NCBI GenBank assembly: GCA_016202545.1
Contig: JACQON010000013.1
Coordinates: 1-64,000, forward strand
DNA from: Chloroflexota bacterium
GTDB lineage: Bacteria > Chloroflexota > Dehalococcoidia > Dehalococcoidales > JACQON01
Reading direction: 5' to 3'
Length of the DNA: 64,000 nt
In this document: positions 2,783-50,561 of the stretch, piece after piece
How the letters are laid out: the number at the start of each line of letters is the position of its first letter
How positions within the stretch are numbered: position 1 is the first letter of the stretch
Position numbers and translations under genes: made by a program
Notes under the pieces: generated by a model
Told to the model about the DNA's origin: nothing
Databases searched by the model: none
Seen by the model: the letters and a program-made list of their open reading frames with translations, nothing else

Positions 2783-4786
2783 GTGAAACTTCAAATAAAA
2801 GTCCCCCTGCTGGTAATCATCATTCTGCTTGTCATTGGCACTATCTTCGGCGGGATGATGGTCTATTTTCAGAGAAAAGCCAGCGTAGACCAGTTCCAGC
2901 ACATGGCTATGACCCTATCTGGAGCGGTGCAGGGCTCTCTGGAGCAGGGAATGCTGAGCGGTGAACGTAAGCAGACCCAAGAAGCCATGCTACGAATCAA
3001 GCAAGAGGAAATGGTCAGCGAGATAGTCCTGTTCTCGCCCACGGGCATGGTCGCTGCTTCAGGCGAGGAATCGCAGGTGGGCAGAATAGACACCGATGAA
3101 GCAATCCGGCTGACATTGCAATCGGGTGAAGTCTCCATGCAGACAGCTAGGCAGAACGGCAGAAGCGAACTGTGGGTTATCACCCCTGTGTTCAATAAGC
3201 CGGAATGCCAGATTTGCCACATGCCCCAAAACCGGGTACTGGGGGCGATAAAGGTTGGCCTGGATGCCACCCCTGTGGACGAGCAAGCAAGGCAGCAGAC
3301 CCTGTTCATCGGCATCCTGGGAGGACTGACCTTCGTCATCATCGGCGGCGGCCTTGCCTTTGCCCTCAACCGGACCATCCTGAGTCCGCTGTCCAGGCTG
3401 ACTGAATCGGCGCAGAGACTTTCCTACGGCGACTACTCGGCCAGGGCCAAGGGCGACGGGAATGGCGATGAAATCGGCATGCTGGCCCAGACCTTCAACA
3501 AGATGGCCGAGAGCGTAGAGCTGCGCACCGGAGAGCTGGAGCTCTCCCGCCAGCAACTGGCGGAACTGAACATAGACCTGGAGAATAAGGTGGAGCAGAG
3601 GACCAATGAGCTATCGGCGCTGAATGCCATCATTACCACCATAAGCCAGTCCCTCGACCTTCACAAGATAATAAATGACGCCCTGAGCAAGATTTTAGCA
3701 GTAATGGGCATAGAGGCGGGCATGATACACTTGCTGGATGAGAAAGTCGGCTATCTGGTCTGCCTGGCTCACAGGGGTTTAGCACCGGAGTATGCCCGTG
3801 AAATCACGAGGCTAAAGCTAGGACAAGGAGTGGCCGGGAAGGCGGCCCAGTCAGGGGAGCCGGTTCTGGTTAATGACGTTGAGGCTAGCCCTGAAGCTAT
3901 CGTGATGATAGGGGAACGGGGCAAATTCCGTGGCTATATCGGCCTGCCGGTAAAGTTGCAGAACCGGGTGATAGGGGTGCTGGCCCTGGCCAGCTACATT
4001 CCTGACCGCTTTGAACCACAGACGTTGCATTTGCTCTCGGCGATGGGAGACGCCTTAGGTATCGGTGTGGAGAACGCCAGAAAGGCGCAAAGACTGGAGG
4101 AGGCAAACAAAATCCGGGAGCAACTGCTGGGAAAGCTCATCTCGGCGCAGGAGGAGGAGCGGCGGCGGATAGCCCGCGAGCTTCACGACGAGGCCAGCCA
4201 GTCCATGGCGGCCCTAGCCATCAACCTGGGCTCCATCGCGGAAACTCTGCCGGCGAGATACCGTGACGTCACACAACGGCTGGAGACTCTCAAAGAGCAG
4301 GCGATTCGCACCGCCGGCGGCATACGCGACCTGGCCCTGGAGCTGCGCCCGAGCGCGCTGGACGAGCTGGGACTGCCCCTGGCCATAGACTGGTATGTCA
4401 AGGACCGCCTGGTAAAACGCGGCCTTGACGTTAAAGTAGAGGTCTCCGGTCCCAAGGCTAAGCTGCCACCATACACTGAGACCATGCTGTTCCGGGTGAT
4501 ACAGGAGGCGCTGACCAACGTGGTCAAGCACGCCCAGGCCAGCAATGTCAGTGTACAGCTACAGATAGGCACCTCGAAGGTCATCGTCCAGGTGGAGGAC
4601 AATGGAAAGGGCTTTGACTCCGAGGCAGCCTTGAGCAGAGACAGCGCCCGGCGCAGCCTCGGCCTTCACGGAATGGCGGAGAGAGTCGCCCTCCTGGGCG
4701 GGACGCTAGCTATCAGGTCGCAGCCAGGGCAGGGAACCTGCGTCCGCGTGGAAGTGCCCCTGGCGAAAGAGGAAGCCGATGGATAA
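2783..4786 (+). CDS. membrane sensor histidine kinase with CxxCH haem motif, HAMP and GAF domains
   Basis: Sensor kinase of the NarL-partner (HisKA_3) type, 667 aa from the GTG at 2783, chosen because GGAGG lies 4 nt upstream; a longer in-frame ATG at 2687 lacks a ribosome binding site. Order: TM1 (about 7-29), extracytoplasmic sensor domain, a haem c motif CQICH at 142-146, TM2 (about 174-196), HAMP with following coiled coil, GAF (about 290-440), HisKA_3 phosphoacceptor motif RELHDEASQ, and a C-terminal HATPase_c ending near 665. A covalently bound haem in the sensor domain would make it a redox or gas sensor; this is inferred from the motif. It overlaps the response regulator gene by 8 bp, and a multihaem cytochrome/cytochrome b pair follows, the likely regulated target. 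Confidence 0.9.
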   Translation: MKLQIKVPLLVIIILLVIGTIFGGMMVYFQRKASVDQFQHMAMTLSGAVQGSLEQGMLSGERKQTQEAMLRIKQEEMVSEIVLFSPTGMVAASGEESQVGRIDTDEAIRLTLQSGEVSMQTARQNGRSELWVITPVFNKPECQICHMPQNRVLGAIKVGLDATPVDEQARQQTLFIGILGGLTFVIIGGGLAFALNRTILSPLSRLTESAQRLSYGDYSARAKGDGNGDEIGMLAQTFNKMAESVELRTGELELSRQQLAELNIDLENKVEQRTNELSALNAIITTISQSLDLHKIINDALSKILAVMGIEAGMIHLLDEKVGYLVCLAHRGLAPEYAREITRLKLGQGVAGKAAQSGEPVLVNDVEASPEAIVMIGERGKFRGYIGLPVKLQNRVIGVLALASYIPDRFEPQTLHLLSAMGDALGIGVENARKAQRLEEANKIREQLLGKLISAQEEERRRIARELHDEASQSMAALAINLGSIAETLPARYRDVTQRLETLKEQAIRTAGGIRDLALELRPSALDELGLPLAIDWYVKDRLVKRGLDVKVEVSGPKAKLPPYTETMLFRVIQEALTNVVKHAQASNVSVQLQIGTSKVIVQVEDNGKGFDSEAALSRDSARRSLGLHGMAERVALLGGTLAIRSQPGQGTCVRVEVPLAKEEADG

Positions 4787-5432
4787 AATCAGGGTTTTCC
4801 TGGCCGATGACCATATTATCATGAGGGAAGGCATTCGCTCGCTGCTACAGAAATACCCGGACATCGATGTTATTGGCGAGGCCGGTGACGGAGAGGAGGC
4901 GGTGACCAATGTCATACAGTCGGTGCCAGATGTGGTGCTGATGGATATAACCATGCCGGTGATAAACGGGCTAGAAGCTACCCGCCGAATAAAAGAAAAG
5001 AGCCCCCAAATCAAGGTGCTGATACTGACCATGCACGACACTGCCCAGTACCTGTCGCAGATGCTTCAGGCGGGGGCTTCAGGGTACGTGGTAAAGACCA
5101 CCGCCACCAGCGAACTAGTAGCGGCGATAAGGGCAGTCCACAAAGGCGATGTATACCTCTACCCTTCCATCGCGCGAATGCTGGTCGAGGACTACCTGAA
5201 GAGGGCAACCTCCGGACAGGCAAAGATAAGCTACGAGGGCTTAACCAAGCGCGAAAGGCAGATATTGACGCTTATCGCCGAGGACAAGAAGAACAAGGAT
5301 ATCGCCGACATGCTGGGCATAAGCGTGAGGACGGTTCAGGCCCACCGCACCAACCTCATGGACAAGCTCGGTGCCCACGACCGGACCGAACTGGTCAAAT
5401 TTGCCCTCCGAAAGGGGCTAATAGAGCTGTAA
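4779..5432 (+). CDS. NarL/FixJ-family response regulator
   Basis: A 217-aa DNA-binding response regulator: REC domain (residues 1-120) with acidic pair DD at 10-11, phosphoacceptor Asp56 in VLMDITMP and the conserved Lys in VVKTT, then a LuxR-type helix-turn-helix (about 150-215, LTKRERQILTLIAEDKKNKD). Its start overlaps the end of the sensor kinase gene, so the two are translated together and form a cognate pair. A close paralogue with the same architecture lies at 39524-40171 next to the cytochrome c maturation operon. Confidence 0.93.
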   Translation: MDKIRVFLADDHIIMREGIRSLLQKYPDIDVIGEAGDGEEAVTNVIQSVPDVVLMDITMPVINGLEATRRIKEKSPQIKVLILTMHDTAQYLSQMLQAGASGYVVKTTATSELVAAIRAVHKGDVYLYPSIARMLVEDYLKRATSGQAKISYEGLTKRERQILTLIAEDKKNKDIADMLGISVRTVQAHRTNLMDKLGAHDRTELVKFALRKGLIEL

Positions 5433-5489
5433 CCACTGTGTAGCGGCAGGCAGGTCGATACCTGATTGCAGAAATAGGCACCATTGTGA

Positions 5490-5612
5490 CAGGTCGCGTG
5501 TTGACAAGAGACCCTGCGTTTCGCTCAGGGTGACAAACCACATTAGTGACATTCTGAGCCGAAGCCCTGAGCGCAGCGAAGGGACAGCGAAGGGGCAGCG
5601 AAGAATGTTGTT
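5490..5612. repeat. dispersed non-coding repeat (GAAGC/CTGAGC-rich)
   Basis: Between the response regulator and the terminator at 5644 lies a stretch with inverted GACA/TGTC-like motifs and the words CCCTGCGTTTCGCTCAGGG and CCCTGAGCGCAGCGAAGGG, which can fold back on themselves. It resembles the repeats at 18405, 52640 and 59968. No ORF of substance is present. Confidence 0.5.
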
Positions 5613-5643
5613 ACACTGATTCAGGCAATCGCATACTAGTATC

Positions 5644-5675
5644 AAGATGCTATCCCACAGGGATAGCATCTTTTT
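5644..5675 (+). terminator. rho-independent terminator
   Basis: Perfect 13-bp stem (5644-5656 with 5660-5672), ACA triloop, followed by a T run. It probably ends the kinase/regulator transcript and isolates it from the gene at 5838. Confidence 0.85.
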
Positions 5676-5837
5676 GTTTTATTCCTGTCGGGTGCGCCGG
5701 CACGTATCCCGACATAACCTTGGGAATAGCATCTTCGCTCTATTAAAAAAGTACAACAAATGACTTATGCTAAAAATAGTGAGAGGTCAGAAGAGGCGAA
5801 AGAGGCTGCAGAGGAGAAGCGAAAGGAGGCACAAAAG

Positions 5838-6143
5838 ATGAGAGTGCACTACGGTGGGCAGTTGGCGGTAGGGGGCGTTTATCTGAACCGCAGCACCGGG
5901 GAGCTTATCCGCCCCAATGCCAGGACGTGGCACCTGCCCGGGGACAGCACGGCCAAATACCTCAAAGTGCCCGCGGTGCTGGCGGTGATAGCCGGTCCCC
6001 TGGCCGGCCTGGCGTTCATATTCTTCCTGCCTTTCATCGGCCTGGCCGGGGCTGCCATCTTCCTGGCATACAGGGCGGCATACGGGTTGCGGCTCGTCTG
6101 GGACAGGGCATCGCTGGTTTTCGCCAGCCGGAAGTCCCAGTAG
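5838..6143 (+). CDS. small membrane protein of unknown function
   Basis: A 101-aa protein with one long or two short hydrophobic segments between about residues 45 and 85. ATG 5838 is chosen because AAAGGAGG ends 8 nt before it; an in-frame ATG at 5760 would add 26 charged residues rich in E/K/A and has no ribosome binding site. No family recognised. It lies 75 bp upstream of the 11-haem cytochrome gene on the same strand and may be an assembly or small structural subunit of that module; this is inference from position only. Confidence 0.6.
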   Translation: MRVHYGGQLAVGGVYLNRSTGELIRPNARTWHLPGDSTAKYLKVPAVLAVIAGPLAGLAFIFFLPFIGLAGAAIFLAYRAAYGLRLVWDRASLVFASRKSQ

Positions 6144-6218
6144 CGCCAGCCCGCCAGCGTGGCCGTGGGCTTTCCGACCAATTGGCGGTGACATCTTGCC
6201 GGGCTGGAGGTCTTACGC

Positions 6219-7439
6219 ATGAAGAGTGCCAACCTATGGATAATAATCGGGGGGATAGCCGTGGCGGCAGCCGTGGCCTGGTTTTCAGCGGCACAGGCCG
6301 CCCCGGGGGCGCCCCAGGTGCCACACGGCGTAGCCGGCCAGGAGAAGTGCCTGACCTGCCACGGTTCCCAGGGCGTAAGGCCGGTGCCCTCAGGTCATGC
6401 CGCCTTTGACGAAAAGTCCTGTCTCGGCTGTCACTCCCCTTCCGCCGCCGCTCCGCCGGCCGCTTCACCACAGCAGGACTGCCTGGGCTGCCATGTCCAG
6501 CCTAGCCTCAGCATGACTCTCGCCAGCGGGGAGACGCTTCCGCTCGTCGTTAACCGTAAAGCATTCGCCACTTCCATCCACGGGGACAAATTATCATGCA
6601 CCGGTTGTCATAGCTCTATCTCGGCATACCCGCATCCCGAAAGCGAGATTCCCAGCCGCCGCGACTACCGCGTCGCCCAGTATGAGCTATGTCAAAACTG
6701 CCATTTTGATAACTATACCAGGATGCTGGACAGCGCCCATTACCAGTTGCTGGCCGGCGGCGATGCGCGCGCCCCCGTCTGCGCCGACTGTCACGGGGCG
6801 CATTACGTGACCCCACCCTCCCAGCCCAGGACTGAGGTCTCCCGCACCTGCTCGGCGTGCCACCAGGATGTCTACAGCGAGTATGCGGCGAGCGTACACG
6901 GAAGGGCAATATCAGGGGAAAACGGCGGTGATGTGCCGGTGTGCACCGATTGCCATACCGCCCATTCTATTGAAAGCCCGCTGACAGCCGCCTTCCGCCT
7001 TCAGTCCGTGAAGCTCTGCAGCGACTGCCACGGCGACAAGGAGCTGATGCAGAAGTACGGTCTCTCGACCAATGTGGTCAAGTCCTACCTCGAAGACTTC
7101 CACGGGAAAAGCGTGGCCTTGGTTGGCAAACAGAGCAAGGAAATCTGGGCCGAGGCTGCGGTATGCACTGACTGCCACGGCGTTCACGATATTCAGGCCG
7201 TGGATGACCCTGACTCGCCGGTGCTCAAGGCCAACCTGGCCAGCACCTGCAGCAAGTGTCATCCCGGTGCCACGGCAAACTTCCCCGGGGCATGGCTGTC
7301 TCACTATGAGCCCGGCATGGATAAAGCCACGCTGGTATTCCTGGTCCGATGGTTCTACCGGGTGCTCATCCCGTTCATTCTGGCCGGTCTCCTGGTGCAT
7401 ATCGGGCTCGGCCTGTGGCGGGCGCTAAAACACGATTAG
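6219..7439 (+). CDS. membrane-anchored multihaem (11 CxxCH) c-type cytochrome
   Basis: A 406-aa extracytoplasmic cytochrome with an N-terminal signal/anchor (about 5-27), eleven CxxCH haem c motifs (CLTCH, CLGCH twice, CTGCH, CQNCH, CADCH, CSACH, CTDCH twice, CSDCH, CSKCH) and a C-terminal transmembrane helix (about 375-400). Numerous extra His residues could serve as distal haem ligands. The C-terminal third is clearly homologous to the 7-haem cytochrome at 51302-52225. The cytochrome b gene follows 14 bp downstream, so the pair likely forms a quinol-linked membrane complex moving electrons to or from an external partner. Acceptor unknown; the family includes octahaem-type reductases but no catalytic signature is evident. 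Confidence 0.88.
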   Translation: MKSANLWIIIGGIAVAAAVAWFSAAQAAPGAPQVPHGVAGQEKCLTCHGSQGVRPVPSGHAAFDEKSCLGCHSPSAAAPPAASPQQDCLGCHVQPSLSMTLASGETLPLVVNRKAFATSIHGDKLSCTGCHSSISAYPHPESEIPSRRDYRVAQYELCQNCHFDNYTRMLDSAHYQLLAGGDARAPVCADCHGAHYVTPPSQPRTEVSRTCSACHQDVYSEYAASVHGRAISGENGGDVPVCTDCHTAHSIESPLTAAFRLQSVKLCSDCHGDKELMQKYGLSTNVVKSYLEDFHGKSVALVGKQSKEIWAEAAVCTDCHGVHDIQAVDDPDSPVLKANLASTCSKCHPGATANFPGAWLSHYEPGMDKATLVFLVRWFYRVLIPFILAGLLVHIGLGLWRALKHD

Positions 7440-7453
7440 AAGCGGAGGTTACA

Positions 7454-8290
7454 ATGGCGGCTAACTTCATAAGGTTCAATCTGAGCCAGCGGGTACAGCA
7501 TATTATACTGATGGTCATCTTCACCGCGCTGGCCGTAACCGGCCTTGCCCAGAGGTTCCACACCGCCGGTTGGGCGGAGTGGGTAATCATGGGCCTGGGT
7601 GGAATTGAACAGACCAGGTTGATTCACCGCATCTTCGGACTGCTGTTCACTTTGAGCATCGTCTACCACTTCAGCGAGGTGGCCATCTCCTTTTTCGTGC
7701 ACCGCTCCAGGTTGTCTATGATACCCACGCTCAGCGATTTTCGCGCCGTGGCCATCGCGGTCAAGCATGGCTTCGGCTTCACTGACAGGCGCCCGCAGTT
7801 CGGCCGTTTTGACTACAGCCAGAAGTTTGAGTACTGGGGGCTCATCTTCGGCAGCCTGGTGCTGACGGTCACCGGCTTTGTCCTGGCCTTTCCTGTCACT
7901 TTTACCAGGCTCCTGCCCGGCCAGGTAGTGGCCGCTTCGGTGGAGTTCCACGGTTACGAGGCGACGCTGGCAGTGCTCACCATCATCGTCTGGCACTTCT
8001 ACGATGTGTTTTTCAAGCCCGGCGTTTTCCCCGTTGATACCAGCATCCACACCGGGAAAATATCGGAGAAGAGGATGCTCGAGGAACATCCCCTGGAATA
8101 CGCCGAGATGGTTGCTGAAGCTCTCGGTGAGGCAGACGCGCTGCCGGCGGAGCAATGCCAGCCGGAACCCGCCGAGCATGAGATACAATCGCCGGATACC
8201 CCTGAAAGCATCGAATCGCCGGCAGCTATACCTGATGCGGCTGCTGCGCGGGAGACACAGTCACCTCATGCCTGTGAGAAGGCGACGTGA
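7454..8290 (+). CDS. cytochrome b/b6-type membrane subunit (FdhI/thiosulfate-reductase-like)
   Basis: A 278-aa integral membrane di-haem cytochrome b of the formate dehydrogenase gamma / prokaryotic cytochrome b561 family. ATG 7454 follows AGCGGAGG at good spacing. Four hydrophobic segments carry candidate haem-ligating His residues (SQRVQH, IHRIFG, YHF, IVWHFYD). A PGVFPVDTSIHTGK motif follows helix 4, and the last ~55 residues form a Pro/Glu/Ala-rich cytoplasmic tail of low complexity. It is homologous to the cytochrome b at 50562-51299, including the motif HPLEYAEM. Together with the preceding 11-haem cytochrome it likely exchanges electrons with the quinone pool. Confidence 0.88.
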   Translation: MAANFIRFNLSQRVQHIILMVIFTALAVTGLAQRFHTAGWAEWVIMGLGGIEQTRLIHRIFGLLFTLSIVYHFSEVAISFFVHRSRLSMIPTLSDFRAVAIAVKHGFGFTDRRPQFGRFDYSQKFEYWGLIFGSLVLTVTGFVLAFPVTFTRLLPGQVVAASVEFHGYEATLAVLTIIVWHFYDVFFKPGVFPVDTSIHTGKISEKRMLEEHPLEYAEMVAEALGEADALPAEQCQPEPAEHEIQSPDTPESIESPAAIPDAAAARETQSPHACEKAT

Positions 8291-19164: not shown

Positions 19165-19261
19165 GGGAGCGGATAGGTTCCGGTGGGCTTCGCGGACTTC
19201 AAATCCGTCGGGGGGCATGAAAAATGTCTTCGGTGGGTTCGACTCCCATACGCTCCCGCCA
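19165..19261 (+). tRNA. selC: tRNA-Sec (anticodon UCA)
   Basis: A 97-nt selenocysteine tRNA. The 5' arm GGGAGCG (19165-19171) pairs with CGCTCCC (19251-19257), followed by discriminator G and an encoded CCA (19259-19261). The anticodon loop CTTCAAA (19197-19203) carries TCA and reads UGA. A long variable arm lies between about 19208 and 19232, and the T loop is TTCGACT (19238-19244) on a 5-bp stem. The oversized variable arm and UCA anticodon distinguish it from other tRNAs. SelA, SelB and SelD genes follow within 6 kb. Confidence 0.95.
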
Positions 19262-21329: not shown

Positions 21330-23198
21330 CTAGTACAGCACCCGCTCATCTCCCACGCGGCGGGTGATTTTCTTGCCGTCCAGGTGCTCCAGGAACGCCT
21401 GGGCATACTTCCGGCTGGTGTTGAACAGGTCCCGCACTTCGGCCAGGGTTATCCTGCCCCGCGCCTTGATATGCTCCGTGACCTTTTCCGCCATCTCGTC
21501 ATAAGCCGAGGCTGAGAAGACCACGCTGTCGCTCACCTTCACCACCTGGCGCCGCTCGATGAGCAGGTTGAGCAAATCAGGCCCGGGGATGAGGTCGGCA
21601 GGCGGAGCGTAGGGGCTTTGACGCAGGGAGTCGAGGAAAGCGTCCATGCTCGCCTGCTGCGCCGGTGTAAGCTGCACCCGGTGGGACGGCAGGCGAACGG
21701 CCATACCCTGCTCAACCAGTACGCCTTTATCAATTAGCTTCTGGAGCACGGCCGGGGCATATGTCCCCAGCTTCAGCTTGCTGCGTACCTCCTCCCTGGG
21801 CATGCCGGCGCGGGCCGGGAACTTCTGATGGTAGTCCCCCACCAGGCTGGCAGCCCGCTGGCACAGTTTCCGCCAGCCGGACCCGGTCAGCAGCAGGCCC
21901 TGCGCGCCTTCACCTACCATTGCTTCGACTTTGCTCAGTACAAGCACCACTTTCCCCTGCCGGACAAGGGCTTCCACCAGCGACTGGAGTTGAGCGGCGG
22001 GAAGATTGCTCTCAGCCGACAGCGCCGATAGCTCTACCGGCTGCTTCGCCTCCAGCAAGGTCAGAATCACCTGCTCGGGGGTGCCCTCTTCCTTGACCTT
22101 GAGGCTCTCAATGACCGCCGTGTGGAGGCGGCGCAGCCGCCTGGCGTGGGCCTCGACTACCCTGCCGCCACCCAGCGTCTCTGTGGACGAGCGGATAATA
22201 AAATGGTCGCCGTTGACCACGGCCACGGGCTTACCCAGTAATAACTGCGCCCAGGTGACTCCTCCCGGCTGAAGCTCGTTTCCCTCCAGCAGACGGACCC
22301 TGGCCGCAGCCTCATCCGCCCCGGCGTAGAAGTTGACGGTGGTATTATGCCGTAGCGTGCGGCGGGCAATCGAACGGAGCCTGGCCGTCACCAGGGTAGT
22401 CGGCGCCAGCCAGCCGGGCGAGGCGAGCACATCACCGCGCCGCAACTGGGCAGTGGCGACGCCCACCAGGTTGGCAGCCACCCGGCTTCCCGGCGTGGCA
22501 GTATCGATGCGGGACTTGTGCACCTGCAACCCCCGCAGCCGCGCCGTCAGCCCGGCAGGGACAATCTCCACCGTCTGCCCCACCGTCAGTGAGCCATCTA
22601 CCAGCGTGCCGGTCACTACCGTACCAGCGCCGGCGATGGTGAACACCCGGTCTATGGCCAGCCGTGGCCGCCCCAGGTCGCTCTTCGGCTGTAGAGTGGC
22701 GAGAAGTGCATCGATGGCCGAGACCAGCCCGGGCAGGCCCTCGCCGGTCACCGCCGAGACAGCCAGGACCGGCGCGCCGGACAGGGCGGTCCGGGAAACC
22801 AGCCCGTCTACCTCCGTCCTGACCAGGTCCAACCACTCGTCATCCACCAGGTCTGTCTTGGTGATGACCACGACCCCCTTTTGCAGCTCCAGCAAGTCCA
22901 GGATGGCCAGGTGCTCCCTGGTCTGCGGCATCACCCCTTCGTTGGCGGCAACCACCAGCAGGGCCAGGTCAACGCCTCCCACACCGGCCAGCATGTTCTT
23001 GATAAAGCGCTCATGTCCGGGGACATCAACAATTCCCACCTCCCGCCCGCTGGGAAGCCTCAGCCAGGCGAAGCCCAGGTCTATGGTCATCCCCCGCTCC
23101 TTCTCCTCGCGGAGACGGTCAGGGTCTATGCCGGTCAAAGCACGCACCAGGGCTGATTTTCCGTGGTCGGTGTGGCCGGCAGTGCCCACGACAAACAT
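21330..23198 (-). CDS. selB: selenocysteine-specific elongation factor SelB
   Basis: A 622-aa translational GTPase that delivers Sec-tRNA to recoded UGA codons by binding the SECIS hairpin. G1 is GTAGHTDHGKS, the switch region GMTIDLGF, G3 DVPGHERFIKN, G4 TKTD. Beta-barrel domains follow, then C-terminal winged helices (from about residue 450, ending in ITRRVGDERVLY) that recognise mRNA. ATG 23198 is preferred because GGGAGG lies 5 nt upstream; the ATG 12 nt earlier overlaps that site. selA ends 63 bp upstream, giving a selA-selB operon. Confidence 0.96.
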   Translation of the reverse strand: MFVVGTAGHTDHGKSALVRALTGIDPDRLREEKERGMTIDLGFAWLRLPSGREVGIVDVPGHERFIKNMLAGVGGVDLALLVVAANEGVMPQTREHLAILDLLELQKGVVVITKTDLVDDEWLDLVRTEVDGLVSRTALSGAPVLAVSAVTGEGLPGLVSAIDALLATLQPKSDLGRPRLAIDRVFTIAGAGTVVTGTLVDGSLTVGQTVEIVPAGLTARLRGLQVHKSRIDTATPGSRVAANLVGVATAQLRRGDVLASPGWLAPTTLVTARLRSIARRTLRHNTTVNFYAGADEAAARVRLLEGNELQPGGVTWAQLLLGKPVAVVNGDHFIIRSSTETLGGGRVVEAHARRLRRLHTAVIESLKVKEEGTPEQVILTLLEAKQPVELSALSAESNLPAAQLQSLVEALVRQGKVVLVLSKVEAMVGEGAQGLLLTGSGWRKLCQRAASLVGDYHQKFPARAGMPREEVRSKLKLGTYAPAVLQKLIDKGVLVEQGMAVRLPSHRVQLTPAQQASMDAFLDSLRQSPYAPPADLIPGPDLLNLLIERRQVVKVSDSVVFSASAYDEMAEKVTEHIKARGRITLAEVRDLFNTSRKYAQAFLEHLDGKKITRRVGDERVLY

Positions 23199-23261
23199 GC
23201 TGCCTCCCATAAGTGGCGCTGAGATTGTTTCTGTTAAGCGCTCTCAGCGGTGTCGTTGCTG

Positions 23262-39523: not shown

Positions 39524-40171
39524 CTACGTGTCTATGCTGACCATCCCTTTGCGCATGGCGTACTTGATAAGCTCGGTGCGGTTGTGGATGTCCAGCTTCT
39601 CCATTATCTTTGTCCGGTGGCCCAGCACCGTCTTCAAGCTGATAAAGAGCATATCGGCAATTTCCTGGCTGGTATGACCCTCTGCAATCAGCTTGAGTAT
39701 CTCCCTTTCCCTATCGGTCATGCGGTCGAAGGGCTCCTCCTTGACCTGGCGCAGGTAGTCCTCAATCAGTATGGTGGTTGCAGAGGGGTAGAGAAAAGAG
39801 TCGCCGCGGTATACCGAGCGTATGGCTGTCATCAGTTCCGAGCCCAATGCTCTCTTGGGTATATAGCCGGCAGCGCCGGCCTTGACCGCCGATAGTACGT
39901 ACTCCCTGCTATCGTGCTGGGTCAGCACCAGTACCTTAATTTCCGGGTTTTTCTTGGTGATGCGGCGGGTAGCTTCCAGACCATCTATCCCGGGCATGGC
40001 TATATCCATGACTATGACATCAGGGGTAAGCTCTCGCGCTTTCTCGATGGCCTCTTTCCCCTCTGATGCCTCGCCGGCTATCTCAATGTCCTCACAGACG
40101 GCAACCAAAGCGCGAATGCCGTCCCGCATCAGAGCATGGTCATCCACTACCAGCACCCTTATCTTATCCAT
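39524..40171 (-). CDS. NarL/FixJ-family response regulator (orphan)
   Basis: A 215-aa response regulator with phosphoacceptor Asp56 (VIVMDIAMP), acidic DD at 10-11 and a LuxR helix-turn-helix (MTDREREILKLIAEGHTSQE). ATG 40171 follows GAGGTG; GTG 40183 is possible. It is strikingly like the regulator at 4779-5432 (same first seven residues MDKIRV+, same Asp position). No kinase gene is adjacent. It sits 17 bp downstream of ccmD as the last gene of the cytochrome maturation operon, so it may share a kinase with the haem-sensor pair or regulate cytochrome genes. Confidence 0.92.
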   Translation of the reverse strand: MDKIRVLVVDDHALMRDGIRALVAVCEDIEIAGEASEGKEAIEKARELTPDVIVMDIAMPGIDGLEATRRITKKNPEIKVLVLTQHDSREYVLSAVKAGAAGYIPKRALGSELMTAIRSVYRGDSFLYPSATTILIEDYLRQVKEEPFDRMTDREREILKLIAEGHTSQEIADMLFISLKTVLGHRTKIMEKLDIHNRTELIKYAMRKGMVSIDT

Positions 40172-40188
40172 GGGGCACCTCACAATTC

Positions 40189-40366: not shown

Positions 40367-41041
40367 TCAGCTATATGTTTTCTTCAATCTGGCTATCTCG
40401 ATTTCATCGTTCCTCATCGACACTCGCTGCACCAGGAGAAGGCAGTATAAAGCAGTGAAGGCGATAATGCTGACGATAAGGGTCAGCAGCATGGCAGGGT
40501 CTATACCACCCTGGAAGATTATCATCGGCGGATGCATGCCGCGCCACAACGTGGTGGACATCCCGATAATGGGCACATCAATGAAGCCCACGATGCCCAC
40601 CACCGCGGCAAAGGCGGCTCCCCGGGACTCCTCGGCGGCGAAAGCCCGCACCATGAAATAGGCAAGGTAGATAAGCCACAACACCAGGGTGGCCGTCAGC
40701 CGGGGCTCCCATGTCCACCATACTCCCCACACCGGACGAGCCCAGATAGAGCCAACGATGAGAGCCAGGCTGGTAAAGAGGACACCCAGCTCGGCCGAAG
40801 ACAGGGCTATGACGTCCCAGCTCCTGCTCCTGCTCTTCAGATAGAGGATGCTGCACACGAATATGACCAGAAAAGCCAGTATGGCCAGCCAGCCCATGGG
40901 CACCATGAGGTAAAAGTTCCTCTGTATCACCCCCATTTCCCTCTCGGTGGGCACGTAGATGAACACCAGGTACAGAGCCGCCATGAACAGGACGAAGGTC
41001 AACCCGAGCAGCCCGGTTTTGAGCGCGTGGTTCTTGTCCAT
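40367..41041 (-). CDS. ccmC: haem exporter/cytochrome c biogenesis protein CcmC
   Basis: A 224-aa, six-helix membrane protein presenting haem to CcmE. The tryptophan-rich haem-handling motif reads WGVWWTWEPRLTATL, and conserved His residues flank it (e.g. in LWRGMHPP). Length and hydropathy match CcmC rather than the longer CcsA. Located between ccmB and ccmD. Confidence 0.93.
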   Translation of the reverse strand: MDKNHALKTGLLGLTFVLFMAALYLVFIYVPTEREMGVIQRNFYLMVPMGWLAILAFLVIFVCSILYLKSRSRSWDVIALSSAELGVLFTSLALIVGSIWARPVWGVWWTWEPRLTATLVLWLIYLAYFMVRAFAAEESRGAAFAAVVGIVGFIDVPIIGMSTTLWRGMHPPMIIFQGGIDPAMLLTLIVSIIAFTALYCLLLVQRVSMRNDEIEIARLKKTYS

Positions 41042-41050
41042 GCTTCACCT

Positions 41051-41722
41051 CTATTCTTCGATGACGAAGGGAAAGACTAAAAATGAGACCGCCAGGAAGA
41101 TGACGTTAAAAGCGGCTATTATCTGAAGCCAGGAAGACAGGTCGGCCCAGGCTTTGCCGGAAAGGGCCAGCCCTGAGGACTCGACGGCGCCGATGATTAT
41201 GGGGACGACAATGGGCAGGAAAAGGATGGGCAGCACCATCTCGCGCGCTCTGGTATTGACCGCCAGGGCAGAGAACAGGGTGCCCACGGCGACAAAACCC
41301 ACCGTGGTCAGGATGGTGATGACTATAATCTGGAGTGACAGCACCGGCAGATTGAAAAGGAAAGCGAATATGGGCAACGCTACGGCCTCGATGACCAGCA
41401 TGAACAGCAGGCTGGCCAGCATCTTGCCGACATAGATAGCCCCGCGGCTTACCGGACAGACCATCAACCCCTCCAGGCAACCTTGCTCCTTCTCCGGGAT
41501 GAAGGCGCGGTTCAGACTCAGCACCCCGGCAAAGGCGAAGGTCACCCACAGCAGGCCGGGGGCAATCGCCGTCACCACCTCCTGCCTGGTGCCAAAGGCG
41601 AAATTGAAGACCACTATCACCAGAAGGGCAAACACCAGCACTGAAGAGACGACCTCCCTGGTGCGCACCTCAGACAGGGCGTCCTTCCAGGTGATGGCTA
41701 GAACTTTGCGCCAGAATCCCAT
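41051..41722 (-). CDS. ccmB: haem exporter permease CcmB
   Basis: A 223-aa six-helix membrane protein with the CcmB opening WKDALSEVRTREVVSSVLVF and the central NRAFIPEKEQGCLEGLMVCP. It forms the CcmABCD complex that releases holo-CcmE. Its start overlaps the end of ccmA by 25 bp. Confidence 0.94.
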   Translation of the reverse strand: MGFWRKVLAITWKDALSEVRTREVVSSVLVFALLVIVVFNFAFGTRQEVVTAIAPGLLWVTFAFAGVLSLNRAFIPEKEQGCLEGLMVCPVSRGAIYVGKMLASLLFMLVIEAVALPIFAFLFNLPVLSLQIIVITILTTVGFVAVGTLFSALAVNTRAREMVLPILFLPIVVPIIIGAVESSGLALSGKAWADLSSWLQIIAAFNVIFLAVSFLVFPFVIEE

Positions 41723-42465
41723 TCCCCGCCTGCAGCGTAGTCCTGATAAGCCTGTTTTAGCTCGGCCAGGCTTAAAGCTTGCTTCGCCTTCTGGTAAACA
41801 ATCTGTCCCTTCGCCAGTATCAGCAGGCGCTCGCCCAGCTCGAAGCCCCGCTCCAGGTTATGGGTGGTAAGCACAATGCTGGGCTCCGTCCCACCCTCTG
41901 CCTCCAGTGCCCGCCACACCATGGGGACGGCTTGCGGGTCCAGTCCGGTCTCCGGCTCATCCAACAGTATGATGGCCGGCTTGTGCAGCAGGCAGCGAGC
42001 AATGGACAGCCTCTGCTGCATGCCGCGCGAGAGAGTGCCCACACGGTCATGGAGGCGGGAGGTCATTCCCACCATGGCTACCACATCATGAATCCGCTCC
42101 CTGGCTTTGGGCACGTCATACATACGGCTGTAGAACTGGAGGTTCTCATAGGCGGTGAGGTTACCGTACAGGTAAGTATGGTGAGTAACTACCCCGATGC
42201 GGTATCGCGCCTCCTCGGCATGGCTCTTGAGGTCAAGCCCGCCAATCATGACCCTGCCGGATGACGGGTTCAGTATGGTGGACAACACCTTAATCAAGGT
42301 GGTCTTCCCCGCCCCGTTAGGGCCGAAGATGACGACACGCTCCCCGCGCCTTACCTCAAGGTCTACCCCCCGCAAAGCAAAATGGTCGCCAAAGGACCTG
42401 ATAAGCCCCTGCGTCTGTATCGCCCAGCCCGGGGAAGCATGACTGGATTCTCCATTATCCGTCAC
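41698..42465 (-). CDS. ccmA: haem exporter ATP-binding protein CcmA
   Basis: A 255-aa ABC ATPase: Walker A GPNGAGKTTLIK, signature LSRGMQQRLS, Walker B IILLDEPETGLD, switch His in TTHNLERG. It uses ATP to free haem-loaded CcmE from CcmC. Overlaps the upstream gene by 4 bp and ccmB by 25 bp. Confidence 0.93.
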   Translation of the reverse strand: MTDNGESSHASPGWAIQTQGLIRSFGDHFALRGVDLEVRRGERVVIFGPNGAGKTTLIKVLSTILNPSSGRVMIGGLDLKSHAEEARYRIGVVTHHTYLYGNLTAYENLQFYSRMYDVPKARERIHDVVAMVGMTSRLHDRVGTLSRGMQQRLSIARCLLHKPAIILLDEPETGLDPQAVPMVWRALEAEGGTEPSIVLTTHNLERGFELGERLLILAKGQIVYQKAKQALSLAELKQAYQDYAAGGEWDSGAKF

Positions 42466-43622
42466 TTCCGGCCTTTTCTTGACCTCCGTACCTGCTCAAC
42501 CAGTTGCGCCTTTTTCTCCGTCCGCAGTCTCCTGTAGACATCCTCCTGGATTTTGCCACCTTCAAAGTCATCGTCTAACTGAGCAAGCTCAACCAGTAGC
42601 TCCTGCCTGGCCCGGCCGGGACGGCTGACTGCTCTGGCCGGCTGCGGCCTTCTCTTCGTCCGGTAGACAAAGGCAAATCCGCCGCCGAGCACTGCCAGCG
42701 CCACCACCAGCCACGGTAGAACCGCGCCCTCTTTCGGAGCGTCAGGCAGGTTGGATAGCCGGATATTTACGGCAGCGCCACGGGCGAGGTCCTTGCCCGA
42801 TAGGCGGCTAAAAAAAGTGCCTTCGATGTTCACCGGCTCCGCCGCGGTCATCTGGTCGCTGACGACGCCGGTGGCATCACCCTGGACTATCACGTCATAA
42901 GAGAGCGTGGGGTAACTCATGCTCCGGGAAAGCGAGTATGTCCCTGATTTATAGCTGACGCGGTAGGAATAAAGCAGCTCTTTCATTCCGGGCACTATCG
43001 CCATGGTATCGGCAAAGCCACCGTCGCTGTTGACAACGCAGCACTCCATCAGGCTGCCGGAATACTGAAGCTCAGTTGCCCCGCCGGGCAGTGGCAGTTC
43101 CATGGTCTTTCTCCTCCCCACGGCGGTAATCTCACCTGTCCCGATATAGGTCCGGTCGCTCTCATTGGCAATCAGGTAATATTCGATGATTTCAAGGCTG
43201 CCCGCCTCAACGTATACCACGGTGTGTGCCTGTGCCACCTTGATAGCGGCATCGTCGGTGGTAGAATCGTATACCGTCATCTCGGTAGACTTGCTGGTCT
43301 CCCCTGCGCCGAAGCTGACTCGCTTGCCAATGTACTCCGCCTCCTGGTAGGTGAGGTTCACCTCATAGCTATAGGTCGGCCCGGTGGCCAGGCCATCGAA
43401 GACGAAGTTGCCCTCGGCATCCGTAGTAGCGGTAGCCGAGCCTGCCTCGGCATCATTGAGGTAGGTCTTGAGAGTCACCTCCAGGCTGGCGACGCTGCTG
43501 CCGCCCTCGGTGCCGTTGATTATGCGGCCTTCAACGGCGCCGTTTTCCGGCTCAGCCGCCAGAACCGGCACCGATAGTCCCAGGACAAGAAACGCCATTA
43601 TACAGGCGATACGCTTGGTCAA
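42462..43622 (-). CDS. exported carboxypeptidase-regulatory-like domain protein in the ccm operon
   Basis: A 386-aa protein with signal peptide (TKRIACIMAFLVLGLSVPVL), a beta-sandwich domain of the carboxypeptidase-regulatory/Cna-B type (GRIINGTEGGSSVASLEVTL to the GPTYSYEV region), a long beta-rich extracytoplasmic part, one TM helix near residue 325 and a cytoplasmic tail of short helices (LVELAQLDDDFEGGKIQED) like SHOCT/CcmI-type tails. Start TTG 43622 overlaps the previous stop (TTGA) and has GAGGAG upstream. Role in cytochrome maturation is inferred only from position and coupling. Confidence 0.75.
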   Translation of the reverse strand: MTKRIACIMAFLVLGLSVPVLAAEPENGAVEGRIINGTEGGSSVASLEVTLKTYLNDAEAGSATATTDAEGNFVFDGLATGPTYSYEVNLTYQEAEYIGKRVSFGAGETSKSTEMTVYDSTTDDAAIKVAQAHTVVYVEAGSLEIIEYYLIANESDRTYIGTGEITAVGRRKTMELPLPGGATELQYSGSLMECCVVNSDGGFADTMAIVPGMKELLYSYRVSYKSGTYSLSRSMSYPTLSYDVIVQGDATGVVSDQMTAAEPVNIEGTFFSRLSGKDLARGAAVNIRLSNLPDAPKEGAVLPWLVVALAVLGGGFAFVYRTKRRPQPARAVSRPGRARQELLVELAQLDDDFEGGKIQEDVYRRLRTEKKAQLVEQVRRSRKGRK

Positions 43623-44161
43623 CTGGACTCCTCCTCTTTGAGACGCGCTCCGCAGTAAGCGCAGAAACGGTCGCTCTCCCGACGCTTCTCCCCGCATTGA
43701 GGACAAAATCGCTCTTTGCCCTCCTTGCCCCGGCGCAACTCTTGAATACTCTTCTCTATCTCATCCTCGACAACGGCGCTCCTGGCCGGCCCCTCCGTGC
43801 CTTTCAGGGCAGGAATGGCCTTGCTCAGGCGCAGCTTTCGGATGCTCTTTTCTATATCATCTTCTACTTCGGCGCTATCGGCACTTTTGGCCAGGCTATC
43901 CATCTCTTTGAGGACGGAGATGGCCTTTTTCTTGTACCTTGTCTCCAGGTCCTGGTAGTCCTCCGTGGTCAGGATTCCCGACTGGAAATCGAACTCCAAC
44001 TCCTTGAGCATGGAGTAGGCGGTGTGCCGCTTTGACTGCAGCTCACGCGTTCTGTCATCCTCCGCTGATTCCAGTGCCACCGCCGGCTTTCTCTTGAAGA
44101 AGGGATAGATGACAAAGGCAAAGGCCAGCGCCGCCAGCAGCAGGGCGACAAAGACCGTCAT
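43619..44161 (-). CDS. CcmI-like membrane protein with C-terminal zinc ribbon
   Basis: A 180-aa protein: N-terminal TM helix (about 3-20), coiled-coil helices (LKELEFDFQSGILTTEDYQD, resembling the CcmI/CycH N-terminal region), and a C-terminal zinc ribbon CPQCGEKRRESDRFCAYCG. It lies between ccmH and the preceding gene in coupled order, so it probably substitutes for CcmI as apocytochrome-handling scaffold; the zinc ribbon is unusual for that role. Confidence 0.75.
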   Translation of the reverse strand: MTVFVALLLAALAFAFVIYPFFKRKPAVALESAEDDRTRELQSKRHTAYSMLKELEFDFQSGILTTEDYQDLETRYKKKAISVLKEMDSLAKSADSAEVEDDIEKSIRKLRLSKAIPALKGTEGPARSAVVEDEIEKSIQELRRGKEGKERFCPQCGEKRRESDRFCAYCGARLKEEESS

Positions 44162-44655
44162 CTGAATCCCTCCTCGGCGAACTCTTTCAGTTCCTTTTCC
44201 AGCAGGCGCTGGTATTCCTCGTCCCCTTCCCCGCTGTCAACCGCCACGGTCGTCTCCAGCTCCCTGCCCCGGGCAACCCATTTCTTAAGGACGAGGTAGA
44301 TTATGGCTCCTCCCGCCAGTATGGCGGCGAAGGGCGCAATCCAGGCAGTCAGGTTGAAGCCCTGCTTGGGCGGAGAGGCCAATACCTGCTCCCCGTATTG
44401 GGCCACGAAGAACTGGATAATCTGCTCCGCCGAATCTCCCCGGTCCAGCCTCTGCGCAATCACGGTGGTCATGGTATCCCGCACCATGCATTCGCCATGG
44501 ACGCAGTTGCTCAGCAACGAGTTACACCCGCACTGACAGATAAGCTGCTTGGCTATTTCATCAACTGTGGCGGCATAGGCCACTGCTCCCGTAGCCAGCA
44601 CCAAAATGACGCTCACAACCAGGACGACCAAAAGCTTGCTCAGCCTTGCCTTCAT
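44158..44655 (-). CDS. ccmH: cytochrome c-type biogenesis protein CcmH
   Basis: A 165-aa thiol-active protein with N-terminal signal/TM (8-28), the motif LICQCGCNSLLSNC (variant of the LRCxxC active site, as in CcmH/CycL/NrfF relatives), and a C-terminal TM helix (about 103-122). It reduces or holds apocytochrome cysteines for haem ligation. Overlaps ccmF and the next gene by 4 bp each. No separate CcmG thioredoxin is present in the operon. Confidence 0.9.
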   Translation of the reverse strand: MKARLSKLLVVLVVSVILVLATGAVAYAATVDEIAKQLICQCGCNSLLSNCVHGECMVRDTMTTVIAQRLDRGDSAEQIIQFFVAQYGEQVLASPPKQGFNLTAWIAPFAAILAGGAIIYLVLKKWVARGRELETTVAVDSGEGDEEYQRLLEKELKEFAEEGFR

Positions 44656-46628
44656 CTTCCCTCACCCCCTTGTGTTTTTGGAGCCACCGGCTTCCGCCGC
44701 TCCGGCCAGAAGGCGAGCAGCCCCCCTATGACCAGGACTATACCCCCAAGCCACATCCAGTTGACCAGCGGATTGACCAGCACCTTAAAGGCGGTGGTGC
44801 CGTCTGCATCCCAGCCAACCAGGATGACGTATAAGTCTTCGACAAGAGTGGAGCGAATGGCGACCTCGGTCACCGGCTGGTCAAAGTTGCGGTGAAAGTA
44901 TTTTTCCGGGGCCAACCTGCCCAGGGGCTCGCCTGAGTTAGATACGGACAGGGTGGCGGTCACCACTTGCCGGCTCTGCGTTTCGTAGTTGTCCATGCCC
45001 TCATAGGTGAGAATGTAGTTGTTGATGGTCATGGTCTCACCGGGCTTCAGCGAAGCCTCCTTCTCCACATTATAGACCGAGGAGGCGACCACACCGATGG
45101 CGAACAGGATGATGCCAATATGGACGATATAGCCGCCGTAGCGCGGTCTGTTGCTGGTAATCAGTCCCCAGAAGGCCTTGAAATAGTTCTCTGCCCTCAT
45201 CCGGTGGCGGGCACTGGTGCCGCGGAACCACTCATAAAAGATGGTAGCCAGGACAAAGCCGCATATGGGAAACGCAGCCAGGGCATACCACTCCCTTATC
45301 CCCACGGCAAAGAGGACCACGGCCAGGGCCAGTGCCCCTACCAGCGGCCAGAGAAAGTTGCGCACCAGGTTGGTGGCTGATGTCCGCCGCCAGCCGATAA
45401 GAGTGCAAATCCCGGCCAGGAGAATGAGCGCCAGGAAGATAGGGCTGTTCACCTGGTTGAAAAAGGGCGGCCCCACGCTTATTTTGACACCGCGGACCGC
45501 TTCAGAGAGCACCGGGAAGAAAGTCCCCACCAGGATGGCGAAGGTGGCGCCGACCAGAAGCAGGTTGTTGAGCAGGAAGGTGCTTTCCCTGGAGAGAAGG
45601 GACTCCATCTCTGTCTCTCCTCTTAGCTCTTCACTGCGGTAATAGAGCAAGCCCAGCGAGCTGAACAGGACGGCGCCGATAAAGCTCAGGAACAGGGTGC
45701 CCAGCAGCGGCGACTCGGCGAAGGTGTGCACCGAAGACAGCACGCCGCTCCGGGTGAGGAAAGTGCCCAGTATCGCCAGTGTGAAAGTAAGAATTATCAG
45801 CACCATATTCCAGACTTTGAGCATCCCCCGCCTTCGCTGCATCATGATGGAGTGAAGGAAGGCGGTGGCCACCAGCCAGGGCATAAAGCTGGCGTTTTCC
45901 ACCGGGTCCCAGGCCCAGTAGCCCCCCCAGCCCAGCTCCACGTAGGCCCACCAGGCGCCGAAGAGGTTGCCCAGCGCCAGAGACAGCCACGCCAGCAGCG
46001 TCCATCTGCGTACGGCTACTATCCATTCATCGCCGAGCCTCCTGGTCCACAGGGCGGCTATGGCGAAAGCGAAGGGGACGGTGAAGCCAACATAGCCTGC
46101 CAGCAAAAAGGGCGGATGGAAGAACATCCCCGGGTTCTCCAGCAGTGGGTTGAGGCCCCTGCCCTCGGCGGGGACAAAAGACAGCAACTGGAAGGGGTTA
46201 GCCACGAACAGCAGCAGGAACAGGAAGAAGGCCTGGGTAGCCATAACCACGCTGGCGGCGTAGGGCACCAACTCCTTGCCGATGTCCCGCCTGTGAAGCA
46301 CAATTACCGCGGCGACAATAGAGAGAATCCAGGCCCAGAACAGCAACGAGCCGTCGTTACCCGCCCACAGCGCGCTGAGGAGATAGTTTAAGGGCATGTC
46401 GCTGCTGGTGTATGTCGCTACGTACTCTACCTGGAAATTATGCGTGACTATGGCGTAAACCAGGGCGATTACCGATATGGAAACCAGGCCGCAAACGGCA
46501 ACAAGGCTGTTTCGAGCGCTCTCAACCAGCGCTGAACGCCCGCGCCTCACCCCGATGGGAAAGGCAACAACCGAATAAACGGCAGCTATCAGTGCCAGGA
46601 ACAGAGCGGCGTAGCCTATTTCTACCAT
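44652..46628 (-). CDS. ccmF: haem lyase CcmF
   Basis: A 658-aa, multi-helix membrane protein that attaches haem to CxxCH motifs. The WWD domain is WGGYWAWDPVENASFMPWL, with conserved His residues on both sides and a large extracytoplasmic C-terminal loop (VEKEASLKPGETMTINNY). Full length for the family. It starts 31 bp downstream of ccmE. Confidence 0.96.
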   Translation of the reverse strand: MVEIGYAALFLALIAAVYSVVAFPIGVRRGRSALVESARNSLVAVCGLVSISVIALVYAIVTHNFQVEYVATYTSSDMPLNYLLSALWAGNDGSLLFWAWILSIVAAVIVLHRRDIGKELVPYAASVVMATQAFFLFLLLFVANPFQLLSFVPAEGRGLNPLLENPGMFFHPPFLLAGYVGFTVPFAFAIAALWTRRLGDEWIVAVRRWTLLAWLSLALGNLFGAWWAYVELGWGGYWAWDPVENASFMPWLVATAFLHSIMMQRRRGMLKVWNMVLIILTFTLAILGTFLTRSGVLSSVHTFAESPLLGTLFLSFIGAVLFSSLGLLYYRSEELRGETEMESLLSRESTFLLNNLLLVGATFAILVGTFFPVLSEAVRGVKISVGPPFFNQVNSPIFLALILLAGICTLIGWRRTSATNLVRNFLWPLVGALALAVVLFAVGIREWYALAAFPICGFVLATIFYEWFRGTSARHRMRAENYFKAFWGLITSNRPRYGGYIVHIGIILFAIGVVASSVYNVEKEASLKPGETMTINNYILTYEGMDNYETQSRQVVTATLSVSNSGEPLGRLAPEKYFHRNFDQPVTEVAIRSTLVEDLYVILVGWDADGTTAFKVLVNPLVNWMWLGGIVLVIGGLLAFWPERRKPVAPKTQGGEGR

Positions 46629-46659
46629 AAACTAGTTTAAACTACTTTCCCGGACGGCC

Positions 46660-47055
46660 TCATTCCGCAGGCTCATATCTGGACGGGCATTTGGCCAGGA
46701 CGGTGCTGGCATAGAAAATCCCTGATGAGTCGAGATAGCCCTCGGCGACAACCTCGCTGTCTTCCTTGAAGGTATCAGGGACGACTCCCCGGTAAACCAC
46801 GGGAAATCCCTGCCCGCTATCGGCATCAATCACGCTGAAGCGGAGTAAAGTACCCTGCTCTTCCCGCTCCACCGAGCCGGGCGCGACCTTGCCGTTCACC
46901 CGTATGTTCTCCCCGTAGACTGAGCTTCCCAGCGCCGATAGCTCACTGACGGTATAATAGTAAGTCGCCGCACCCGTGAAGCCATTATAGAGCAGGAAAC
47001 CCAGGGCAAGAGCCACTACCAGCCCGCCAATCAAGAACTGCTTCCTCTTCAGCAC
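46660..47055 (-). CDS. ccmE: haem chaperone CcmE, CxxxY variant
   Basis: A 131-aa membrane-anchored beta-barrel haem chaperone. TM helix about 8-24; conserved YRGVVPDTFKEDSEVVAEG. The haem-binding position, HxxxY in most bacteria, is Cys-Pro-Ser-Arg-Tyr (AKCPSRYEP), that is the CxxxY type known from some archaea and sulfate reducers. First gene of the ccmEF-H operon. Confidence 0.94.
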   Translation of the reverse strand: MLKRKQFLIGGLVVALALGFLLYNGFTGAATYYYTVSELSALGSSVYGENIRVNGKVAPGSVEREEQGTLLRFSVIDADSGQGFPVVYRGVVPDTFKEDSEVVAEGYLDSSGIFYASTVLAKCPSRYEPAE

Positions 47056-47132: not shown

Positions 47133-47450
47133 TCAAGCTGTCTTATGACAGGCCTGGCACATTTCACTGGTGCGGCCAGCATGGTCAGCCGGGTACGGCT
47201 TAATTCCGCTTGCCCCATGGCACAGAAGACAATCAGCACGCCCCTCCAGAGTATGAGGTATTATCGGCGGCGCCCCCGGCGTTGGAGTGACCGTGGCAGT
47301 TGGTGTAGGCGTCGGCGTGGGAGTTGATGTAGGCGTTGGTGTTGGCGTTGGTGTGGGAGCCGGGGTCGGTGACGGAGCGGCGCAGGCCGCCGCCAGTGGC
47401 ACCAGAACCAGCAGTGTCGCTACCATCAATAGTACCACTTTAGTCTTCAT
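47133..47450 (-). CDS. small diheme c-type lipoprotein with Thr/Pro linker
   Basis: A 105-aa lipoprotein: signal ending in the lipobox AAAC, a ~40-residue linker of alternating Thr-Pro, then a compact C-terminal domain with two haem c motifs, CLLCH and CQACH. It resembles half of a multihaem cytochrome domain; probably an electron shuttle at the outer face of the membrane. ATG 47450 has AGGAGG upstream. It lies between the pentahaem lipoprotein and the ccm operon on the same strand. Confidence 0.85.
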   Translation of the reverse strand: MKTKVVLLMVATLLVLVPLAAACAAPSPTPAPTPTPTPTPTSTPTPTPTPTATVTPTPGAPPIIPHTLEGRADCLLCHGASGIKPYPADHAGRTSEMCQACHKTA

Positions 47451-47562
47451 GTGCTCACCTCCTAAGCTATTATAGTTAAAGTTGCTGCCCATTCCTTAGA
47501 GCGGACCTAGGAGATGCTTAGCCCTTCATTATAATAGCGCATCAGCCCGCCCGTTGGCAACG

Positions 47563-47590
47563 AAGAAGCTGGGAATACTCCCAGCTTCTT
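47563..47590. terminator. hairpin/terminator downstream of the pentahaem cytochrome gene
   Basis: A perfect 12-bp stem (AAGAAGCTGGGA/TCCCAGCTTCTT, ATAC loop). It carries some T residues on both strands. Two further GC-rich hairpins (GGGGCGGCC/GGCCGCCCC, and GCCTGGCGGG/CCCGCCAGGC) lie at 47641-47697, just after the cytochrome stop codon, without T runs. Confidence 0.55.
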
Positions 47591-47712
47591 TACCCGAACA
47601 TCAAGCACCGCTCGACTTCGATTTTCGGCATCTCCTTTACCGGGGCGGCCGTTTCCGGCCGCCCCCCAGCCTGGCGGGATTCTAAGCCCGCCAGGCAAAA
47701 TGACCTGTTGGA

Positions 47713-49017: not shown

Positions 49018-49193
49018 ATCGCCCTCCTTTCTACAAAGACCAGCTCAACGTAGCGGGCGCAAAACCATGCTCCGCCCGTGACACGAATCATAGTTTCTAA
49101 ATAGGTCGCATACATACTAGTAATTATATAGCTACACATAACTACTATGTATTATACCATAATTATGCTTGGCATAGTTGGGGGTATTTCTAC

Positions 49194-50342: not shown

Positions 50343-50351
50343 TGTATCCTC

Positions 50352-50561
50352 CTACTCCACCCTCAGTATGGCCAGCATGAAGATTACCCCGCCAACGACG
50401 AACAAGACCGGCACCATGGAAAAGTTAATAACGCCAAAAAGGGGATATTTTTCAGGGAGGCCAGAGTAGATATTGAATAAGACCAGCGCCACCACCAGCA
50501 CGAACAGTATGCCGGCAGTCCTGGTCAGCCAGTCATCGAAAATCTCCTTCAGGTATTTCAT
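50352..50561 (-). CDS. small two-TM membrane protein of the cytochrome module
   Basis: A 69-aa protein: short amphipathic N terminus (MKYLKEIFDDWLTR), TM helices at about 15-33 and 46-66. Its ATG directly follows the cytochrome b stop codon (TGA-ATG junction), and the NapC-like gene follows after 9 bp, so it is probably a structural subunit of the same complex. No family recognised. Confidence 0.7.
   Translation of the reverse strand: MKYLKEIFDDWLTRTAGILFVLVVALVLFNIYSGLPEKYPLFGVINFSMVPVLFVVGGVIFMLAILRVE

Follow-up and report, generated by a model that had tools for sequence, protein, structure and literature searches.

The window, meaning the whole stretch of 64,000 nucleotides that was analysed, encodes a sensor histidine kinase and an overlapping response regulator, followed by a small membrane protein and two cytochrome genes, while the genes of a Ccm system lie on the opposite strand. 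The features concerned are as follows.

2783..4786, + strand: sensor histidine kinase of 667 aa, an open frame with a GTG start and GGAGG at 2775-2779
2804..2869, + strand: transmembrane (TM) helix 1, about residues 8-29, from Kyte-Doolittle windows
2870..3298, + strand: extracytoplasmic sCache-type predicted c-haem sensor domain, residues 30-172, PF21563
2951..2953, + strand: Met57, predicted distal haem ligand
3206..3220, + strand: CQICH, residues 142-146, predicted site of covalent haem attachment with His146 as proximal ligand, conserved in the family
3299..3373, + strand: TM helix 2, about residues 173-197, from hydropathy
3365..3520, + strand: HAMP domain (Pfam)
3653..4069, + strand: cytoplasmic GAF domain (GAF_2, Pfam)
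4157..4360, + strand: HisKA_3, dimerisation and phosphoacceptor domain (Pfam)
4478..4765, + strand: HATPase_c (Pfam)
4779..5432, + strand: NarL/GacA-type response regulator, overlapping the kinase gene by 8 bp
5644..5672, + strand: terminator-like hairpin of 13 pairs with a T-run (0.8 expected in shuffles, weak on its own)
5838..6143, + strand: small membrane protein that matches no Pfam family and has homologues next to the L109 and L142 kinases
6219..7439, + strand: undecahaem c-type cytochrome with 11 CXXCH motifs and a C-terminal hydrophobic segment
7454..8290, + strand: cytochrome b561 / formate dehydrogenase gamma-type membrane subunit
40367..47055, - strand: Ccm system I genes, comprising ccmC (40367-41041), ccmB (41051-41722), an ABC ATPase (ccmA, 41698-42465), ccmH (44158-44655), ccmF (44652-46628) and ccmE (46660-47055)

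The start of the kinase gene was placed at GTG 2783, where the similarity to its relatives begins, and a start at 2687 was set aside, as both the GGAGG sequence and the start of the orthologue alignment favour the former. Kyte-Doolittle analysis established hydrophobic segments at about residues 1-31 and 172-200, which bracket residues 30-172, and this hydropathy profile, together with the position of the HAMP domain after the second helix, places the PF21563-type domain outside the cytoplasm between the two TM helices. An earlier reading made from the sequence alone had described a two-TM HAMP-GAF-HisKA_3 histidine kinase with a CQICH motif between its helices; the Pfam matches to HAMP, GAF_2, HisKA_3 and HATPase_c and the two hydrophobic segments bear out this architecture, and the motif was found at the residues given.

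The sensor domain was assigned to PF21563 (Mcp40H-20_sensor), with a match of 38.1 bits for the whole protein and 41.8 bits for the domain alone against a Pfam cut-off of 27. When the window sequence alone was compared by phmmer with proteins of solved structure, the only plausible relatives were 3b47 (E 0.0084) and 3b42 (E 0.056); these single-sequence scores are weak, so that a family profile was needed to reach the two structures, and a profile of 13 members matched 3b42 at E 5.6e-16 and 3b47 at E 1.8e-15. According to the literature 3b47 is GSU0582 and 3b42 is GSU0935, the PDB entry name being only 'methyl-accepting chemotaxis protein'. All 13 aligned domains matched PF21563 at E<=0.01, while PF11845 (Tll0287-like) did not match the window domain at that threshold and was matched weakly by two of the 13. 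The comparison with Tll0287-like sensors that had been suggested earlier is therefore replaced by one with GSU0582 and GSU0935, the closest relatives, which belong to PF21563 and have a distal Met, and not to the Tll0287 branch of PF11845 with its distal Cys. Under the wide definition of sCache_heme, in which a CXXCH motif is inserted in a single Cache domain and GSU0582 and GSU0935 are included, the window domain fits. A single-sequence AlphaFold2 model of residues 30-172 was unusable (pLDDT 34.7), and the fold assignment rests on sequence profiles. The proposal that this is a c-haem sensor domain was supported by the PF21563 score above the cut-off, the profile match to the c-haem domains of 3b42 and 3b47 and the conservation of CXXCH. 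Scanning contigs with the whole kinase recovered relatives of its kinase half, none of the 80 loci carrying the sensor domain (best profile E 0.15). A CYLCH motif in the L003 kinase was rejected as a further candidate; its frame opens with a PAS-like stretch, more Cys residues come after the motif, and it is probably cytoplasmic.

Conservation was assessed in 13 aligned domains, comprising that of the window and those of 12 relatives obtained in groups of four, seven and one from separate searches. The relatives are the fetched frames with full-domain profile matches at E<=1e-17, all of which contain CXXCH, and their domains are 19-60% identical to that of the window, the nearest orthologues being those of G361 (60%), G434 (57%), G003 (54%) and G024 (52%). 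CXXCH is present in all 13 members, in the loop that precedes the final strand, the stretches examined for the relatives having been cut around this motif. Six columns are invariant, namely M57, P135, C142, C145, H146 and G154 in kinase numbering (28, 106, 113, 116, 117 and 125 in domain numbering), so that loss of the motif among orthologues, by which the earlier proposal could have been refuted, was not observed. The motif of the window aligns with CQSCH of both 3b42 and 3b47, and phmmer sets M57 opposite chain residue 26 of 3b42; as C106, C109 and H110 of that chain correspond to Cys140, Cys143 and His144 of GSU0935, chain residue 26 is Met60. The next ten weaker frames outside the Tll0287 group (E 1.8e-12 to 2.3e-6; the partial match G355:C45 was left out) have no CXXCH and resemble ordinary Cache-like kinases, which indicates that the motif follows the family boundary; four further frames scored as lacking it are second weak matches inside frames already counted. 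When the 143-residue domain was shuffled 200,000 times, a C..CH pattern arose by chance in 49 cases, and among 20,000 shuffled versions of the complete kinase it arose in 2.

The regulators that accompany the orthologous kinases of L108, L142 and L143 share 73-77% identity with the response regulator of the pair, and that of L109 shares 69%. In 7 of the 13 loci (the window, L108, L109, L142, L143, L144 and L147) the gene after the kinase encodes a NarL-type regulator. The output of the family is not always transcriptional, as in L145 (482-2479) the same sensor domain is fused to HAMP-GAF-HD (HD-GYP-like) with no kinase; in L149 (5066-7930) it belongs to a hybrid kinase that also has a GGDEF domain and two matches to receiver domains. 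An orphan NarL-type regulator (39524-40183, - strand) adjoins the ccm genes of the window; it was rejected as a copy of the regulator of the pair, to which it is 51% identical, the nearest of those compared being the regulator of the dCache kinase described below (53%).

Downstream of the pair, the sequence-only reading had noted a multihaem cytochrome and a cytochrome b, which correspond to the 11-CXXCH cytochrome and to the b561-type protein ending at 8290. It had also pointed to the region upstream of 5838-6219 as the place to footprint the regulator; a non-coding stretch does separate the regulator from the next gene (5433-5837), but 5838-6219 itself holds the gene for the small membrane protein, whose alternative start at ATG 5760 was set aside in favour of 5838. 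Homologues of this small protein were found at L109:6051-6374 (40% identity over 72 aa, E 3e-15) and L142:9041-9298 (34% over 67 aa, E 2e-11). A search of 5380-6260 for sigma-70 promoter patterns gave none. A respiratory module lies beside the kinase in 3 of the 13 loci: that of the window, L142 (an 8-CXXCH cytochrome, an Fe-S protein and NrfD) and L148 (Rieske, cytochrome b and c-type cytochromes). The remaining ten have no adjoining module, L143 (5.1 kb) and L146 (3.3 kb) being short contigs and L108 starting at a contig end. That the pair controls the undecahaem cytochrome/cytochrome b operon downstream of it is something that we infer; against it, the terminator-like hairpin lies between the two units and the neighbours differ or are absent in the 12 relatives, although two of these also stand beside quinone/cytochrome c modules.

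The ccm machinery invoked in the earlier reading is present in the same window in the form of the Ccm system I genes. Further multihaem cytochromes are encoded near these genes (47133-52225); the frames at 47713, 49194 and 51302 have 5, 5 and 7 CXXCH motifs, respectively, and that at 47133 has 2. The window also contains a selenocysteine tRNA gene (19165-19261) and a SelB-like frame (21330-23210), the latter named from the look of its sequence only.

The properties of the nearest studied relatives are set out in a review, PMC8396549. The haems are high-spin when oxidised and low-spin when reduced, and the potentials are -156 mV for GSU0582 and -251 mV for GSU0935. In GSU0935 one haem is ligated by His144 and Met60 and the other by His144 and water; the Met ligates the reduced haem and is released upon oxidation, and NO or CO replaces Met60. 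CO binds the reduced form of the Geobacter domains, while NO binds both redox states. The domains form a swapped dimer in which each haem lies between the helices of one chain and the strands of the other, and PMC3460858 and PMC3831638 likewise present the swapped-dimer model, along with further homologues in Anaeromyxobacter.

Very probably the kinase has a haem bound covalently on the outer side of the membrane, by which it would read redox state or nitric oxide; redox or gas sensing, as documented in PMC8396549 and PMC12889525 for its nearest studied relatives, is the best guess by analogy for its function. We consider it likely that this kinase belongs with GSU0582 and GSU0935 (PF21563) among the c-haem sCache sensors, with redox-linked His/Met switching and binding of NO and CO, that signals to the adjacent NarL-type regulator; the conservation of Met57 makes the same ligand switch the best guess for the window kinase. 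According to this model, Ccm would attach haem to C142 and C145, with H146 as the proximal ligand, and Met57, in the N-terminal helical part, would serve as the distal ligand, and might be supplied by the other chain of a dimer, as happens in the swapped Geobacter dimers. Reduction would favour His146/Met57 ligation, and oxidation or the binding of NO or CO would displace Met57. The N-terminal helices would shift as a result, and this movement may be passed through TM1 and TM2 and the HAMP domain to HisKA_3, changing phosphorylation of the regulator; electron-transfer modules of the quinone/cytochrome c type, such as 5838-8290, are the genes whose expression is likely to be the output.

That the protein is mainly a nitric-oxide sensor, with the redox state only setting the background, appears rather unlikely, although there is something to be said for it: the Geobacter domains, as reported in PMC8396549, bind NO in both redox states, and according to PMC12889525 a signalling-type sCache_heme protein of P. 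azotoformans binds NO tightly and does not bind O2, NO sensing having been proposed for those sCache_heme domains that are joined to signalling modules. Against this, the neighbours of the kinase are electron-transfer genes, the conserved Met is a requirement of a redox-linked ligand switch, and the genome of the window (G000, a 1.74 Mb assembly that is 88% complete) offers no evident NO metabolism, with no NrfA-type nitrite reductase found and, for the COX1 family, one partial match only (query 305-407) in a short frame. The lack of an NrfA match, the partial COX1 match and the electron-transfer neighbours lead us to prefer redox over NO, on thin evidence. Slightly less probable still is an electron-accepting, cytochrome-like relay, in which a periplasmic cytochrome would reduce the haem directly and the haem would report electron supply; multihaem cytochromes adjoin the kinase in the window and in L142 and a bc-type complex does so in L148, but most relatives are without such neighbours, and the relay overlaps with the main explanation.

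It could also be argued that the CXXCH motif binds no haem, being a metal site, a disulphide or a chance occurrence in an ordinary ligand-binding Cache domain, as the look of the ten weaker profile hits without the motif might suggest. This we regard as very improbable given the invariance of both CXXCH and Met in all 13 domains, the significant profile match to solved c-haem domains, the presence of the Ccm genes and the low frequency of the motif in shuffled domains. The redox-linked His/Met sensor of the GSU0582/GSU0935 kind is accordingly retained as the preferred reading.

Sensors of this type are infrequent in the genomes surveyed. PF21563 was found in 2 and PF11845 in 11 of 301 genomes drawn from the phylum, and 57 of 393 class genomes had any match to the sensor profile, only 8 with strong full-domain matches, most of the remainder being hit via the TM2-HAMP part. 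No reductive dehalogenase match was found in the 88%-complete G000, while each of four same-order relatives (single-contig, 1.4-2.1 Mb) has 21-50, a number to be expected in Dehalococcoides or Dehalogenimonas, which points to Dehalococcoidales (Chloroflexota) as the order. Our searches on multihaem and histidine-kinase topics for 'Dehalococcoidia' returned no literature. Judged by its sequence, the window protein is a further member of an already known c-haem sensor type, in Chloroflexota and probably Dehalococcoidales. It would place PF21563-type c-haem sensing with a Met switch in a phylum in which sCache_heme is described, in PMC12889525, as rare or absent, and the conserved Met57/CXXCH pair is directly testable, in anaerobes with few known signals.

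A second candidate group was encountered in the same genome. The strongest HisKA_3 match in G000 (L112:6543-8897, on G000:C10) is a kinase with dCache_1, HAMP, GAF, HisKA_3 and HATPase_c domains and a CHRCH motif at residues 248-252, and a paralogue lies at G000:C27:4549-5538. Matches to its sensor part occur in 62 of 294 genomes of the class, and such dCache CHxCH kinases are commoner in Chloroflexota than the window's own kind. C248, C251 and H252 occur in all 20 aligned sequences (its own and those of 19 loci) and H249 in 19 of them; among 19 further phylum loci, including its own paralogue, 8 have CHxCH (all E<=3.6e-83) and 11 have no CXXCH (all E>=2.7e-72). All 18 rows of one alignment matched dCache_1. 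The PDB matches of this sensor are dCache-type sensors, the matched stretches stopping before the motif, and no haem protein is named among them. In a profile comparison of moderate strength (probability 80.5, E 1.3e-5) the first dCache module was the one aligned with the window domain, whose haem loop faced a gap, while CHxCH is located in the second Cache module; this difference of module suggests that the haem motif was acquired separately in the two groups. A literature search on Cache domains with c-type haem or CXXCH yielded no paper describing a dCache c-haem sensor, and these kinases are possibly an unpublished class of candidate c-haem sensors. We tentatively suggest, at somewhat less than even confidence, that G000 has two separately evolved periplasmic c-haem redox sensors on a HAMP-GAF-HisKA_3 chassis, the single-Cache window kinase and the dCache_1 CHxCH kinases (that of G000:C10 and its C27 paralogue), the latter forming a new sensor class. 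If this is true, the two kinds of sensor together would allow these Chloroflexota to monitor the potential of their electron-transfer chain in the periplasm and to regulate quinone/cytochrome c modules accordingly. The dCache CHxCH kinases may represent a second route by which Cache domains have acquired haem.

The window kinase resembles GSU0935 and GSU0582 in that a predicted single domain of the Cache/PAS-like type lies outside the cytoplasm, flanked by two TM helices, with a CXXCH motif in the same loop and a predicted distal Met in the same place; those proteins are deltaproteobacterial chemoreceptors, however, whereas the window protein has a HAMP-GAF-HisKA_3 arrangement with a NarL-type regulator and is from Chloroflexota. 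In PMC12889525, a 2026 preprint, DUF3365/Tll0287, GSU0582 and GSU0935 are together named 'sCache_heme'. The sCache_heme (PF11845) proteins described there, in which a Cache fold with covalently bound haem is linked to signalling modules, histidine kinases included, resemble the arrangement predicted here, although Met is conserved in the window family and the distal ligand of Tll0287 is Cys. The two-component form is itself already known, as eight two-component proteins of G. sulfurreducens with c-haem motifs, including GSU0283 and GSU0303, are listed in PMC8396549, with one or two such motifs in each. NarX and NarQ likewise combine a HisKA_3 kinase with a NarL-type regulator, but the sensor domain of the window protein is from another family and the full-length models match its kinase half best, so that identity with either was rejected (NCBIfam NarQ, 124.5 bits against a cut-off of 553; NarX, 100.8 against 578).
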